Source: a virus. Taken from it: a stretch of 25,104 nt of DNA. The number at the start of each line of letters is the position of its first letter. The first letter of the stretch is position 1. A program made the position numbers and the translations under genes. The notes below the pieces were generated by a model, which had not been told where the DNA came from, searched no databases, and worked only from the letters and a program-made list of their open reading frames with translations. The stretch spans positions 1-25,104 of the IMG/VR virus record IMGVR_UViG_3300046007_001750; one strand, 5' to 3'. This document shows positions 16,148 to 24,737 of this stretch, one piece after another.

Positions 16148-16387
16148 ATGAGTAAAATTGAAACTACCGCAGCAGATCTTACTGGATTAATTAACAACGC
16201 AATTGATTTGTATGTAGACGCCTTGCGACGACGGCAAGTAATTAACGATGCTCAGTTTGAAGAAACAAAAAAATACAGAGTAATATTTGCACAACGAGGA
16301 TTTTTTGGGAAAATTTGGGAAAAGGTACTAGGAAAGAATGAACTTACTCTAGCAGTTACCGAAATAATTCCATTACCAGACGAATAA
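16148..16387 (+). CDS. Lone plus-strand small protein, unknown function
   Basis: This ORF encodes 79 residues, with a strong ribosome binding site (AGGAG eight bases before the ATG). The N-terminal 50 residues look helical and charged (AADLTGLINNAIDLYVDALR, RRQVINDAQFEETKKY). The C-terminal part is more hydrophobic (IFAQRGFFGKIWEKVLGKNE, then LTLAVTEIIPLPDE). No family is recognised and there is no signal peptide or clear membrane helix. It is the only gene on this strand, flanked by a divergent gap and by a long palindrome that covers its stop codon. This could be an independently expressed moron-like gene or a small regulator. Real coding status is supported by the ribosome binding site and natural composition. 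Confidence 0.7.
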   Translation: MSKIETTAADLTGLINNAIDLYVDALRRRQVINDAQFEETKKYRVIFAQRGFFGKIWEKVLGKNELTLAVTEIIPLPDE

Positions 16388-16416
16388 AGTATTCGTCATT
16401 TTATTCGTCTGGTAAT
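16372..16416. terminator. 17-bp perfect inverted repeat between convergent genes
   Basis: ATTACCAGACGAATAAA (16372-16388) is perfectly repeated inverted at 16400-16416 around an 11-base loop, and it overlaps the last codons and stop of the plus-strand gene. The loop side also allows a competing 8-bp hairpin (GACGAATA with TATTCGTC, 16379-16397). It sits between convergent genes, so a bidirectional terminator is likely, although no strong T-run follows on either strand. Confidence 0.55.
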
Positions 16417-16428
16417 TAGCAACACAAC

Positions 16429-19332
16429 TTAAAAACTAATTAATCCTCTAGTAAACTGAGTTCCTGTGTTTTGCATAACGTATAAATACTTCAATCCATC
16501 TGGGGTTTCAATTACTTCCATAACGTTTCCAATTGTTGGTGTACCTTGTAAGATCGTTGAAGTCATAACACCTCGAATTGTATTTGCATTAATATCATAT
16601 GCAAAAATACGAATGGGTGAGCTAGCAGTAATTCCCTTTGCTATATAAATGGTATCGTTTCCATCATACGTGTACGAGGTTCCAGTAGTAAACGTTTCTG
16701 TTTGTGGATCATAGAAATTACCAAATATCCATGTGCCCCGTGAAATATCGTAAATATCAAACGCAGAAGAGCCGCCTCCACGGAATAGATACATATATCT
16801 ACCACGTATTGTAGGATTGGTATTATTATACGCCCATAGTAAGTTTGCCGCCGCATTGCGTGGCGGAACCGATATAATTGAAAACGTAGCGTCAGCCGAT
16901 ACTGCCGTGATAGTTGCGGTAGTTAATGCATTTGCAGTATTTGATGTGATAGCTGCCTCTTGACCAAGACCGGTTGTTCCACCAGTAACACGAAAACGCT
17001 TACCAGCAAAATAATTAGTCACCCAGTTGGGAGAATATCCGGATGCGCTTGTTATAGTAGTAGTTCCAGCTATACCGGTTAACCCCCACGTATCTGCAAT
17101 TTCATATTTTGTACTAGGATCTGGTGTAAATGACTGTGTAGCATAAAATAATGTATTTGAGTTGTTATTAATAATCGCCAGACGACCTGACCCATATCCA
17201 GTTCCCGCTTCAACTTTAAACAGCGAACCAGACCATTGCCCCGGAATCCAACTTTTTGTAACGTCAACTAGTCTGTTTGTCGCTTGATCCGATCCAGTTG
17301 CCCATCCATATGCGTCTCTACCAGTCATTCTACTAACAGTGTCATATCCATACGCCTTTGCATCATAAATGATGTACTTAGACGTACCGTTACTTGCTGC
17401 CGTAATAGTGTTAAATGTTAACGTGGTTTGCGTATTTGCTGTGATCCAACGTATTTGAGAAGTCGGAGCATTACCCGCGACCATTATGTGTACCAAACGA
17501 CCCACATGTTCGTTTGGAATCCAGTTTGCCGTCGGATCCACAAGCGTAGTAGTACCCTGAGACGCCGTGGCCGCTATTGCACTATTTGCGGTAGTTTGTA
17601 CAGAAAACACGCAAGAGGTTGTGGTTACCGTTGATACCCCTAAAATTGTATACGTAGTATTCCACGCTGCTTCGGAACAACCGGAAATGGTAATCTGATC
17701 ACCTGTTTTAAACCATGTAGCAGTTGATGTGGTGATGTTTGCAGTTTTACCCACCGATGTGATTTCAACCGTACATCCTGTACCCACACCACCGGTTGTT
17801 GCTCTACCAGTCCCTACAGTATATCCAGTAGCAGTTCCAGAGTTAACTAATTGTAACCCAGTAACGGTTCCCCCAAGACCAATAGATGTTACGATTACTT
17901 GTGCGCCAGTACCACCTGTAGTAACTGTTAGAATGTCACCAATCGTATAATTTGTTCCAGCAGCAGTTGGCGTAGAATTAATAGCCGTAATACCGGATGC
18001 AATCGGCGTGATGCTGGATGCAACTCCAATTGGCTGCCACCCGTCCATAGTTACCGCTACGTTTGTAGTAATTCCAGAATCAAATCTATACCCCTGCGAC
18101 CACACATCATAATCAGGATGATATGCCAACATAGAAGAGTTGCCACCAATAGGCACATATGCAATATCATTGTCTGGCCAGATTTCGTATTTACTAGTTG
18201 AATCCGGGACTTGCGTGAATGTTGGGGAAACCCAAAATGACGCTGAGTTGTGTCCGGTTATTCTTCTGTCTTGACCGGTGCCTGACCCACTTGTAATATA
18301 AATTCTATGGTTTGCGTAGCGATCTGGTTCAAGATTTAATGTAGTATCTGACAGAGAACGAGTTGTTGCCGATATAGAAGAACCAGAAAATGGGCCGACT
18401 AACGGGGAAGTCCCAAGTTTTAATGTATTTTCAAAAGAAGCGTCAGTACCCAATGCAGCAAGTAAAAGAGATTGAGGAACAGTTTTAGTTTGCCACAAAT
18501 CATTCGCGATGTCATAATATTGTAATGACATAAATGGCGTGAGCGCGGCCGATGATAATAAATAAATTCCACCAGTTAATGTAGTAAAATATGATCTATA
18601 ATCGGGTATTACATTCCACGGAGTATTTACCGTAAACGTGCTTGCCATTATTTGATAATGTGCTTGAGAACCAGCCGTTGTGACGGGTAAAGCATACGGC
18701 GCGGTTGCCACGAAGACCTGATTGTTCCACGGGTCATGTGGTAATAAGTTATTATCTTGAAAATACAATGTTGTGGCATCATTATATAATACCTTCTTGT
18801 AAGTTGGTGCGGTAGCACCACCTGTACCAAAGGTAACCGCAACTACATACCCAGACCATTGATTAATTCTCCACTTCTTGGTGGAATCTGCCAACGTCGA
18901 AGTGGTAGTACCTGTAATAACACCCGCGTCTAATATACTTTCACTAACAAATGTTAGTGTTCGTTCCTGGCCAGCTCCCGGTCCTCGTTCAATTATCAAC
19001 GAAGATCCACTTAGAGCTGGACCACGAAGACCGGGTATCGTGATCGTTGTAGATGATGCGGCCAATACTCGACCGTGATATCCCCGACGAGATGTAGTTC
19101 GTAAGCTAGCCAACGTCGCGGTGGCTGTGGGTGGGGTTGCAAGTTGTTGCCATGTGTCAGCAACTACATCATATCTGTAAAACAAAGGTCCGGGTGCCAT
19201 ATAGTAAAAATATTCACCACCCGTTCTTGGATATGTCACCGCGGCCAATGCAGATGTTGCAGTTGGCGCTTGGTTTAACAATTCCATGAACGGTAAATCT
19301 ACCATTCTTTTATTATTGTTTGTTACTGACAT
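16429..19332 (-). CDS. Large repeat-containing virion protein with kelch-like segments
   Basis: This ORF encodes 967 residues, with AGGGG upstream of the ATG. Kelch-like blades with aromatic-Asp-x-x-x-x-x-W signatures occur near the start (FYRYDVVADTWQQL, about 50-65), near 270 (QYYDIANDLWQTKT), near 410 (LAYHPDYDVWSQGY) and near the end (AFDIYDISRGTWIFG). Between them are about five copies of a 65-residue unit starting near 146, 327, 594, 686 and 759, with the pattern D-x-T-x-x-W, then an aromatic-x-G, then G-x-x-R-x-I, then TKYEI. A glycine-rich insert (about 440-530) holds TNYTIGDILTVTTGGTGAQV. It is probably a baseplate or tail-surface protein with propeller and beta-repeat folds. No catalytic motif is seen. 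Confidence 0.75.
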   Translation of the reverse strand: MSVTNNNKRMVDLPFMELLNQAPTATSALAAVTYPRTGGEYFYYMAPGPLFYRYDVVADTWQQLATPPTATATLASLRTTSRRGYHGRVLAASSTTITIPGLRGPALSGSSLIIERGPGAGQERTLTFVSESILDAGVITGTTTSTLADSTKKWRINQWSGYVVAVTFGTGGATAPTYKKVLYNDATTLYFQDNNLLPHDPWNNQVFVATAPYALPVTTAGSQAHYQIMASTFTVNTPWNVIPDYRSYFTTLTGGIYLLSSAALTPFMSLQYYDIANDLWQTKTVPQSLLLAALGTDASFENTLKLGTSPLVGPFSGSSISATTRSLSDTTLNLEPDRYANHRIYITSGSGTGQDRRITGHNSASFWVSPTFTQVPDSTSKYEIWPDNDIAYVPIGGNSSMLAYHPDYDVWSQGYRFDSGITTNVAVTMDGWQPIGVASSITPIASGITAINSTPTAAGTNYTIGDILTVTTGGTGAQVIVTSIGLGGTVTGLQLVNSGTATGYTVGTGRATTGGVGTGCTVEITSVGKTANITTSTATWFKTGDQITISGCSEAAWNTTYTILGVSTVTTTSCVFSVQTTANSAIAATASQGTTTLVDPTANWIPNEHVGRLVHIMVAGNAPTSQIRWITANTQTTLTFNTITAASNGTSKYIIYDAKAYGYDTVSRMTGRDAYGWATGSDQATNRLVDVTKSWIPGQWSGSLFKVEAGTGYGSGRLAIINNNSNTLFYATQSFTPDPSTKYEIADTWGLTGIAGTTTITSASGYSPNWVTNYFAGKRFRVTGGTTGLGQEAAITSNTANALTTATITAVSADATFSIISVPPRNAAANLLWAYNNTNPTIRGRYMYLFRGGGSSAFDIYDISRGTWIFGNFYDPQTETFTTGTSYTYDGNDTIYIAKGITASSPIRIFAYDINANTIRGVMTSTILQGTPTIGNVMEVIETPDGLKYLYVMQNTGTQFTRGLISF

Positions 19333-23115: not shown

Positions 23116-23186
23116 ACAATTCTCAGTATAAAGAATACTCTGATATAAATATCATCAAATAAAAGTAAACTCCCGTTACTATAACC

Positions 23187-24059
23187 TCACTGCGGTTGGA
23201 TGTGAGATAATAGTTGTTGAATGACCCAGAAGGGGCGTTCCTTTATATCACTACCCCAAAAACGTAATACTGTATAACCATGTTGCTGGGCAATCTCAGT
23301 TTTTAATTTATCTTTGTGTTGTGTCTCATGTAAAAACGGTGAATGTGTTTTTATACTAGGGCCACCATGCCAATAATCTCCATCTACTTCAATTAAAATA
23401 GGTAAGTTTTTTAATTTAAAATCATACGCAAAAGTTTCATCGTTTTCTGTAATAAAAAACTGATGATGGTACGGTGTATTGGTTTGCTCTAGCATCTTCA
23501 TGAACAATTTTTCAATATCGGTCAAACTACGTTTAGCAAAAATCTTTTTTACCATTTCAGGACTTTTCATCAATTTACTATGCTCAGGACGTTTTTTTCC
23601 ATAAAATGGATTATTTTGCCCAGACATTTTTTTAGATAATTTTTGTCTCCATCCCTTATTTTCACGGGCAGCTTTCATTTTTTCTTTATACCCATCTTGT
23701 TGCCAAACTTTTTTCTGAGCTTCACTCCAATTCACCGAGTTAATAAAATCATATTCCCCGTTAGCAAACTTTTCCTTACGTTTCTGAGAGATATTTTCAC
23801 GAGCTTCTTTAGTGTGAGATTTTCCGTACATGGGGTTATTTTCACCTTTATTATTATGACCGTTTGCATATTCACCATATCCACGATCACTGCGCCATTT
23901 GGTAGGTGTTCCGCAACCACACTTACAAGTTGGAACTTCTTTTATACCATGATATTCACGGTATAATGATTCCCCAACGAGTTTATATTTGGTTCTTGTG
24001 TGTTTTGCTAATGCATTATAAGATGAATATTCTTGGTTACATCTTGGACATTTAAACAT
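23187..24059 (-). CDS. Free-standing homing endonuclease, NUMOD3 plus Vsr-like nuclease
   Basis: I choose the ATG at 24059 (290 residues) because AAGGAG lies five bases upstream; an in-frame start at 24110 would place that site within the gene. The N-terminus is zinc-finger-like (FKCPRCNQEYSSYNALAKH, with C4, C7 and H20) and is followed by CKCGC at 45-49. Two NUMOD3-like DNA-binding motifs follow (NNPMYGKSH near 74 and NNPFYGKKRPEH near 149). The C-terminal 110 residues match a Vsr-like (EDxHD) nuclease: E183, D213 (YDFKL), IEVDGDYWH at 223-231, D250, and GYTVLRFWGSDI at 261-272. All candidate catalytic residues are present. It lies between the tail tube and the next structural gene, not inside an intron as far as can be seen. 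Confidence 0.9.
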   Translation of the reverse strand: MFKCPRCNQEYSSYNALAKHTRTKYKLVGESLYREYHGIKEVPTCKCGCGTPTKWRSDRGYGEYANGHNNKGENNPMYGKSHTKEARENISQKRKEKFANGEYDFINSVNWSEAQKKVWQQDGYKEKMKAARENKGWRQKLSKKMSGQNNPFYGKKRPEHSKLMKSPEMVKKIFAKRSLTDIEKLFMKMLEQTNTPYHHQFFITENDETFAYDFKLKNLPILIEVDGDYWHGGPSIKTHSPFLHETQHKDKLKTEIAQQHGYTVLRFWGSDIKERPFWVIQQLLSHIQPQ

Positions 24060-24062
24060 AAA

Positions 24063-24107
24063 AACTCCTTCGTGATAGTGTACATATATACATATCACGA
24101 AGGAGTT
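24063..24107 (-). promoter_or_regulatory. RNA hairpin sequestering the homing endonuclease ribosome binding site
   Basis: On the minus strand a 15-bp perfect stem (AACTCCTTCGTGATA with TATCACGAAGGAGTT), plus a one-base bulge and four more pairs, closes on a six-base loop. The 3' arm contains the AAGGAG that serves the ATG at 24059, and the stem ends in a T-run just before that ATG. Translation from read-through messages would be blocked, as known for T4 homing endonuclease genes. The stem with its T-run could also terminate transcription after the tail tube gene. Confidence 0.75.
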
Positions 24108-24160
24108 CAAAACATCAACCGGATTAGATTATTTTGAATATTGTAATAAATACAGTATAA

Positions 24161-24649
24161 TTACCAGTTCAACACACAATAATCGGGTTGGATGGTAACA
24201 GTAAACTCTACTTGTTCATCTGCACCCCAATCCATGTCACCAAAGTTTACTTCCGTAATTTGTGCACCCTTGATGATCCATTCTTCTACCTTGTCGCCGA
24301 CCGGTCCAAGCACATTCAGCGTCAAGTCCTTTTTGTAAAATTCAAGGTACCCGTCACGACCGGTTACAGATTCGTGGTGAAGACGAACCCATTCCATGAC
24401 TGCTTGCGCACCGGATGGAACAATTGGATCGTATAGGGTCATTTGCATGTTACCCCACTTACTCTTACCCTTAACATATCGTTGTACGTTGATATGGTCA
24501 AGAGCCTTTGCTTCTTGTGAAAAAGTCGGTCGTGCAACCTTTTTTACGATGTATGAAGGAATTCCATCCATGTAGAGGATGAAACGATTCTTCATCTTTG
24601 GTTCAAATGCTGTGAAGAATAATTCTTGTTCAGTTACTAGATTAGCCAT
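24161..24649 (-). CDS. Tail tube protein, T4 gp19 family
   Basis: This ORF encodes 162 residues, essentially the length of T4 gp19, with GGAG eight bases before the ATG. The family pattern is clear: PKMKNRFILYMDGIPSYIVK near the start (the first tube strand), VARPTFSQEAKALDHINVQR, a KGKSKWGNMQMTLYDPIVPS segment, and a closing ITEVNFGDMDWGADEQVEFT with VTIQPDYC. The protein forms the hexameric rings of the inner tail tube through which DNA passes. It follows the sheath gene in the order found in T4-like phages. Here it is followed by a homing endonuclease and then fibre genes, not by a portal gene. Confidence 0.95.
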   Translation of the reverse strand: MANLVTEQELFFTAFEPKMKNRFILYMDGIPSYIVKKVARPTFSQEAKALDHINVQRYVKGKSKWGNMQMTLYDPIVPSGAQAVMEWVRLHHESVTGRDGYLEFYKKDLTLNVLGPVGDKVEEWIIKGAQITEVNFGDMDWGADEQVEFTVTIQPDYCVLNW

Positions 24650-24700
24650 GTAATTTCTCCGAAAGGATTTCTAACTATAAATATATGATAATTTGAAATT

Positions 24701-24728
24701 GTGGAGGGAGGTTTTATACTCCCCCCAC
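24701..24728 (-). terminator. Hairpin between sheath and tube genes
   Basis: On the minus strand GTGGGGGGAG pairs with CTCCCTCCAC over 10 bp, including one G-U wobble, around an eight-base loop. The same position is an A-C mismatch on the plus strand, so the structure favours minus-strand RNA. No T-run follows. It may be a weak terminator or a processing or stability element that helps set the ratio of sheath to tube. Confidence 0.5.
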
Positions 24729-24737
24729 GTTTTCAAT

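Follow-up and report, generated by a model that had tools for sequence, protein, structure and literature searches.

A hairpin that may serve a mobile phage endonuclease gene as captured tail-tube terminator, translational lock and promoter carrier

Hairpins that hide the Shine–Dalgarno (SD) sequence of a homing endonuclease gene (HEG) have been described for I-TevI, I-TevII, I-TevIII and segB of phage T4 and for mobE of phage Aeh1, together with promoters placed so that transcripts bypass the hairpins (PMC2988022). For I-TevI, the transcripts silenced by the hairpin are early and middle ones; a promoter inside it yields late transcripts that escape (PMC2988022). Terminators are also on record at such genes: those of T4 mobE and segF lie inside coding regions, and seg43(25) of Aeromonas phage 25 has a terminator-like 5′ hairpin that does not hide the ribosome-binding site (RBS) (PMC2988022). 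The HEG analyzed here shares with the first group a stable hairpin over its SD and, in place of the late promoter by which late I-TevI RNA avoids the hairpin, has a candidate promoter in the loop; like mobE, segF and seg43(25), it is a free-standing endonuclease gene whose 5′ end has a hairpin of terminator type. Unlike the T4 and Aeh1 leaders, its hairpin occupies the terminator position of the upstream gene, places a U-tract at the ATG and appears to have replaced a resident terminator, and both nuclease type and promoter motif are different. The hairpin's position immediately ahead of the ATG separates it from the mobE and segF terminators, which are within the coding region, and its cover over the SD separates it from that of seg43(25), which leaves the RBS free. 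The preliminary description of this DNA had invoked T4 hairpins that silence late read-through; SD-hiding hairpins do exist there, but that of I-TevI acts on early and middle rather than late transcripts (PMC2988022). In the open-license literature, covered mostly as titles and abstracts, we found no single hairpin described as upstream terminator, SD lock and promoter carrier at once, and no endonuclease family tied to gp19 that has a leader of this type.

The window, by which we mean the whole stretch of DNA analyzed, is an entire IMG/VR record of 25,104 bases and represents the tail region of a T4-like myovirus. At its end the − strand encodes, in order, tail sheath, tail tube (gp19), endonuclease and the next tail gene (Table 1). 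The HEG protein combines a C2H2 finger, NUMOD3 repeats and a DUF559/Vsr-like domain (DUF559 E value 1.2e-5), and its C-terminal domain gives weak profile matches to PDB 3r3p ('Mobile intron protein', E 0.006), which we take to be I-Bth0305I, and to Vsr (1cw0, E 0.044). This weak similarity links it to the EDxHD/Vsr-like homing endonucleases, from which it differs in being free-standing, in its N-terminal zinc finger and NUMOD3 repeats and in its tie to the gp19 3′ flank. Residues D213, E224, D226, H231 and D250 are invariant. Close relatives (58–76% identity) occupy the corresponding position after gp19 in other phages; no cultured HEG-bearing relative was found, and matches in the phage collection were weak and partial. 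One related endonuclease (L106:4067–4831) keeps the N-terminal half of the window's family and has a diverged C-terminal nuclease half, resembling a domain swap. At another locus (L145), a GIY-YIG-like gene (MSIGIYFIRNITNGYFYVGSARNCKKRW) directly follows the tube gene, and this site 3′ of gp19 may serve nucleases of a second type as well.

Table 1. Features around the tube–endonuclease junction, in window coordinates.
Feature	Position	Strand	Remarks
Promoter-like motif GATATTTATA of next gene, downstream of HEG	23144..23153	−	exact match
Putative remnant of resident tube terminator: unpaired 3′ arm GTAACGGGAGTTT and T-rich tail	23160..23183	−	matches intact terminator of L092 (HEG-less)
Free-standing homing endonuclease gene (HEG), 290 aa	23187..24059	−	zf-C2H2, NUMOD3, DUF559/Vsr-like nuclease
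T-run (U-tract) TTTTT	24060..24064	−	directly 5′ of start codon; doubles as SD-to-ATG spacer
Hairpin	24063..24107	−	5′ arm 24107–24093, loop 24092–24078, 3′ arm 24077–24063; covariation
Shine–Dalgarno (SD) GAAGGAG	24065..24071	−	all within 3′ arm of hairpin
Promoter-like motif GATATGTATATATG	24083..24096	−	top of 5′ arm and loop
Spacer, tube stop to hairpin	24108..24160	−	similar in L086 and L109–L111
Tail tube gene gp19, upstream of HEG; hairpin occupies its terminator position	24161..24649	−	

The inverted repeat AACTCCTTCGTGATA/TATCACGAAGGAGTT pairs over 15 bp without a mismatch around a loop of 15 nt, and one outer G–U pair extends the stem to 16 bp (24062–24108). As first described, the SD is wholly inside the perfect 15-bp stem. 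The T-run said to stand right before the ATG does consist of five T followed at once by the start codon (24059–24057), but it overlaps the base of the stem by 2–3 bases, with two of the five T inside the perfect stem. Simulated windows of the same dinucleotide content (n = 20) had longest repeats of usually 9–10 bp and at most 13 bp, and the fold energy has a z of −4.9, with none of 200 shuffles equally stable; on these comparisons, together with covariation, we rejected a chance origin. An in-frame TTG at 24110 would permit a longer ORF through the hairpin, a coding extension that we rejected because relatives all start at the ATG and because length differences among the hairpins are not multiples of 3. 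A search for known RNA families gave a sub-threshold miRNA match alone, which we disregarded. A generic scan lists no sigma-70 promoter at the hairpin on the − strand, and the hairpin itself is absent from it because the scan accepts only loops of 3–8. Within the window it is the second-longest short-range inverted repeat; the longest (17 bp, ATTACCAGACGAATAAA...TTTATTCGTCTGGTAAT, 16372–16416) falls between the convergent ORFs 16148–16387 (+) and 16429–19332 (−) and is probably a two-way terminator.

Five distinct, diverged near versions of the HEG (those of the window, L002, L005, L006 and L106) all place a hairpin immediately 5′ of the ATG and the SD within its 3′ arm, although they share common ancestry and are not five independent cases. 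In their alignment, 98.7% of pair cells hold standard pairs and compensatory changes occur at 6 of 16 pairs, with a covariation score of 0.406 against a shuffled mean of 0.188 and values of at most 0.187 with slid partners; the inner six pairs, GTGATA/TATCAC, are invariant. Conserved pairing in related phages, which the preliminary description had named as a check on its proposal, was thus found across all five versions, and its claim that the hairpin sequesters the SD gains strong comparative backing. A folding model predicts that the SD is unpaired with probability 0.0005 on read-through RNA versus 0.56 on RNA initiated in the loop. We consider sequestration very probable. Because pairing is needed for both functions, compensatory changes cannot separate sequestration from termination.

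The same arrangement extends to a wider family. In 30 of 41 thinned, distinct HEG leaders, a stem of 10 bp or more ends within 14 nt of the ATG, as it does in 32 of 563 other genes, some of which are themselves endonuclease-like; stem and T-run together occur at the start of 9 of the 563. The 30 of 41 is a conservative count, since a group recognized by eye (the 'ATGGGAATT' group) also has a hairpin and T-run but places its start codon at the 3′ arm, outside this definition. Distant HEG groups have stems of unrelated sequence, often of A and T alone; most carry TATTTAT close to the apex and T5–T8 ahead of the ATG. Members with such a leader lie almost all directly behind gp19, and a few relatives located elsewhere (L046, L026 and L021) have none. 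In a sub-group (L199, L203, L213, L220, L188 and others), the endonuclease ATG is at the start of the 3′ arm (AATTCCC..TATTTATATATATGGGAATTTTT) and the hairpin runs into the first codons, which suggests a nearly leaderless mRNA made from a motif just upstream.

To ask what the tube gene has behind it when no endonuclease is present, we fetched relatives of the tube gene and counted distinct loci. Near tube genes without the HEG have a stem at the hairpin's place in 37 of 39 distinct loci, 28 of them with a T-run of at least 4, and in two more distant tube lineages a stem follows gp19 in 39 of 51 and 48 of 54 distinct loci; terminator-like hairpins also follow the tube gene of the cultured Microcystis phage Mel-JY01 and Flavobacterium phage immuto, neither of which has this HEG behind gp19. 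Several HEG-less terminators have nearly the window's stem, for example that of L086 (AAACTCCTTCGTGATATCACAAACGGTATCACGGAGGAGTTTTTATAAC), which keeps stem and T5 with no following ORF and no loop motif, and the CTCC...GGAG stem itself recurs at L086, L129 and L137 with no gene attached. The window hairpin thus has position, stem type and T-run in common with the ordinary intrinsic terminators after gp19. In those, however, no gene begins at the U-tract, and a promoter-like motif is usually missing from the hairpin. The window hairpin scores 20.7 on a d'Aubenton-Carafa-type terminator scale (ΔG −23.7, tail 4.5), within the HEG-less range, with a loop of 15 that is longer than usual for an intrinsic terminator; the L006 hairpin scores −0.9, just under zero, and the AT-rich stems of distant members −6 to 24.

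What lies behind the HEG bears on the same question. In four of the five near versions, an orphan 3′ arm stands just past the HEG stop, and the corresponding terminator is intact in a HEG-less locus for the window (GTAACGGGAGTTTACTTTT, intact in L092), L106 (CCTGCGGGAGTTTTT, L107) and L005 (GTGTGGAGATTTTG, L122); L006 has a similar orphan (ACGTGGGGGTTTTG), for which no intact counterpart was found among the relatives. The site is represented by occupied and empty alleles (5 HEG+ versions and 39 HEG− distinct near loci), and the orphan arms indicate that a unit of spacer, hairpin and HEG replaced the 5′ part of the resident terminator. L002 joins the same flank as L110 immediately after the terminator, their right flanks being 98% identical. 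Three loci (L109–L111) lack the endonuclease but have its spacer and 5′ arm, followed by a complete resident terminator, an arrangement that looks like a recombination scar. We infer from these junctions that the HEG unit arose beside an L086-like terminator and later spread by homing. Termination of the tube message, suggested in the preliminary description, agrees with the HEG-less relatives, which have their tube terminator in exactly that place, and with the broken resident terminator at the HEG, and we regard it as likely. Its wider suggestion that one element could both end the tube message and silence translation holds in part: comparison argues for both halves, and strongly for sequestration.

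A third role, absent from that earlier reading, is probable on comparative grounds. With a motif matrix learned from non-endonuclease genes, in which the motif lies a median of 40 nt before the ATG, the loop sequence GATATGTATA, 37 nt before the HEG ATG, scores 12.0 bits, a value that 0.5% of shuffles attain. In the phage group, 65 of 191 genes have TATTTATA upstream, versus 5.1 expected, and one has its reverse complement there, so the signal is strand-specific; the T4-type promoter TATAAATA occurs once in the 191 upstream regions and was rejected as this phage's motif. Hairpin motifs above 5 bits were found in all five near HEG+ hairpins and in 4 of 39 HEG− tube hairpins (p = 1e-4), with L106 reaching only 5.6 bits. 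The loop motif has one mismatch to the family consensus GATATTTATA, and because it is one base off in all near members its strength as a promoter is uncertain. T4 late promoters start transcription about 6 nt downstream of their motif; by analogy, RNA would begin near 24081, before the 3′ arm, and such RNA, having no 5′ arm, would leave the SD exposed. A promoter function for the loop motif is plausible, and 'late promoter' is a label that we infer for it.

The reading that we favor, with reasonable confidence, is that a mobile HEG, its start codon at the end of the U-tract, has captured this hairpin, a tail-tube terminator; the stem, the T-run, the ATG and the SD placed in the 3′ arm are conserved as one unit. 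Polymerase that has transcribed the tube gene would mostly halt at the U-tract, and any read-through RNA would fold the hairpin with its SD hidden. The loop promoter, read by the phage late transcription machinery, would give short RNAs without the 5′ arm, and the endonuclease would be translated mainly from these. Homing would break the recipient's terminator but supply a replacement, so harm to the tail operon would be limited. We give an even chance to the fuller proposal of a gp19-linked HEG family with a three-in-one leader (terminator, loop promoter and SD in the 3′ arm), in which homing installs a working replacement terminator and the parasite both repairs the unit that it damaged and gates its own translation. 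If true, this would offer a mobile gene a route into an essential, highly expressed structural operon at little cost, would draw ribosome site and off-switch from the same hairpin that supplies the terminator and would join two modes of control known separately from T4 endonucleases. Its predictions, concerning RNA 3′ ends, 5′ ends and compensatory changes, are testable on about 100 bp of DNA.

The hairpin could instead act in sequestration only, as an I-TevI-type SD-hiding hairpin with a loop promoter, its T-run a mere spacer and the tube message not terminated. I-TevI, segB and mobE are precedents (PMC2988022), the T-run of just five is also the SD-to-ATG spacer and so need not exist for termination, and L006 and some distant members have poor terminator scores. 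We nevertheless judge this unlikely, since the hairpin is positioned where the tube terminator would be and, with the resident terminator broken behind it, tube and HEG have no other candidate between them; moreover, T-runs of 5–8 are kept in distant members with unrelated stems, and stem plus T-run is as rare among other genes as noted above. Improbable in our view is the converse, termination only, in which GGAG would be incidental, present because terminators here start with CTCC, SD placement and loop motif would be by-products and the HEG would be expressed by read-through or never. The gene-free CTCC...GGAG stems of the three HEG-less loci fit such an account, but every near member has its ATG right at the hairpin, at a distance suited to an SD, the promoter-like motif marks HEG+ hairpins and is rare in HEG− loci, and sequestration physically follows from an SD in so stable a stem.

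Least credible, and in our estimate very improbable, is that the hairpin is an RNase processing stem, or a DNA palindrome bound by protein and serving the endonuclease or a phage regulator as operator, with incidental RNA pairing. I-TevI represses itself via an operator over its late promoter (PMC2988022), and the invariance of the inner pairs in the near family would suit a binding site, but overlap with the promoter-like motif explains that invariance. The outer pairs vary by compensation, distant HEGs have unrelated, often AT-only stems at the same position, and the layout is asymmetric, with SD and T-run on one side only.

Terminators, promoters and gene starts also lie close together elsewhere. 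Between the sheath and tube genes of the window, a hairpin at 24690–24735 (GTGGGGGGAG...CTCCCTCCAC), probably the sheath terminator, is followed at 24676–24685 by the promoter-like TATATTTATA, probably the tube promoter. In Mel-JY01 (L404:3700–3763) and at L154:3987–4076 and L159:3987–4077, terminator-like hairpins with a TATTTAT or ACTTATA loop motif precede ordinary genes and appear to fuse terminator and promoter outside endonuclease genes; among 162 terminator-like hairpins, a promoter-like octamer was present in 11 at endonuclease genes and 6 elsewhere. At six further loci (L328, L330, L353, L364, L388 and L400), the gene that starts right at the U-tract of the tube terminator is a different one; it has a zinc-finger-like motif (GYTCNxCGKVF) at its N-terminus and perhaps represents another endonuclease family of the same habit.
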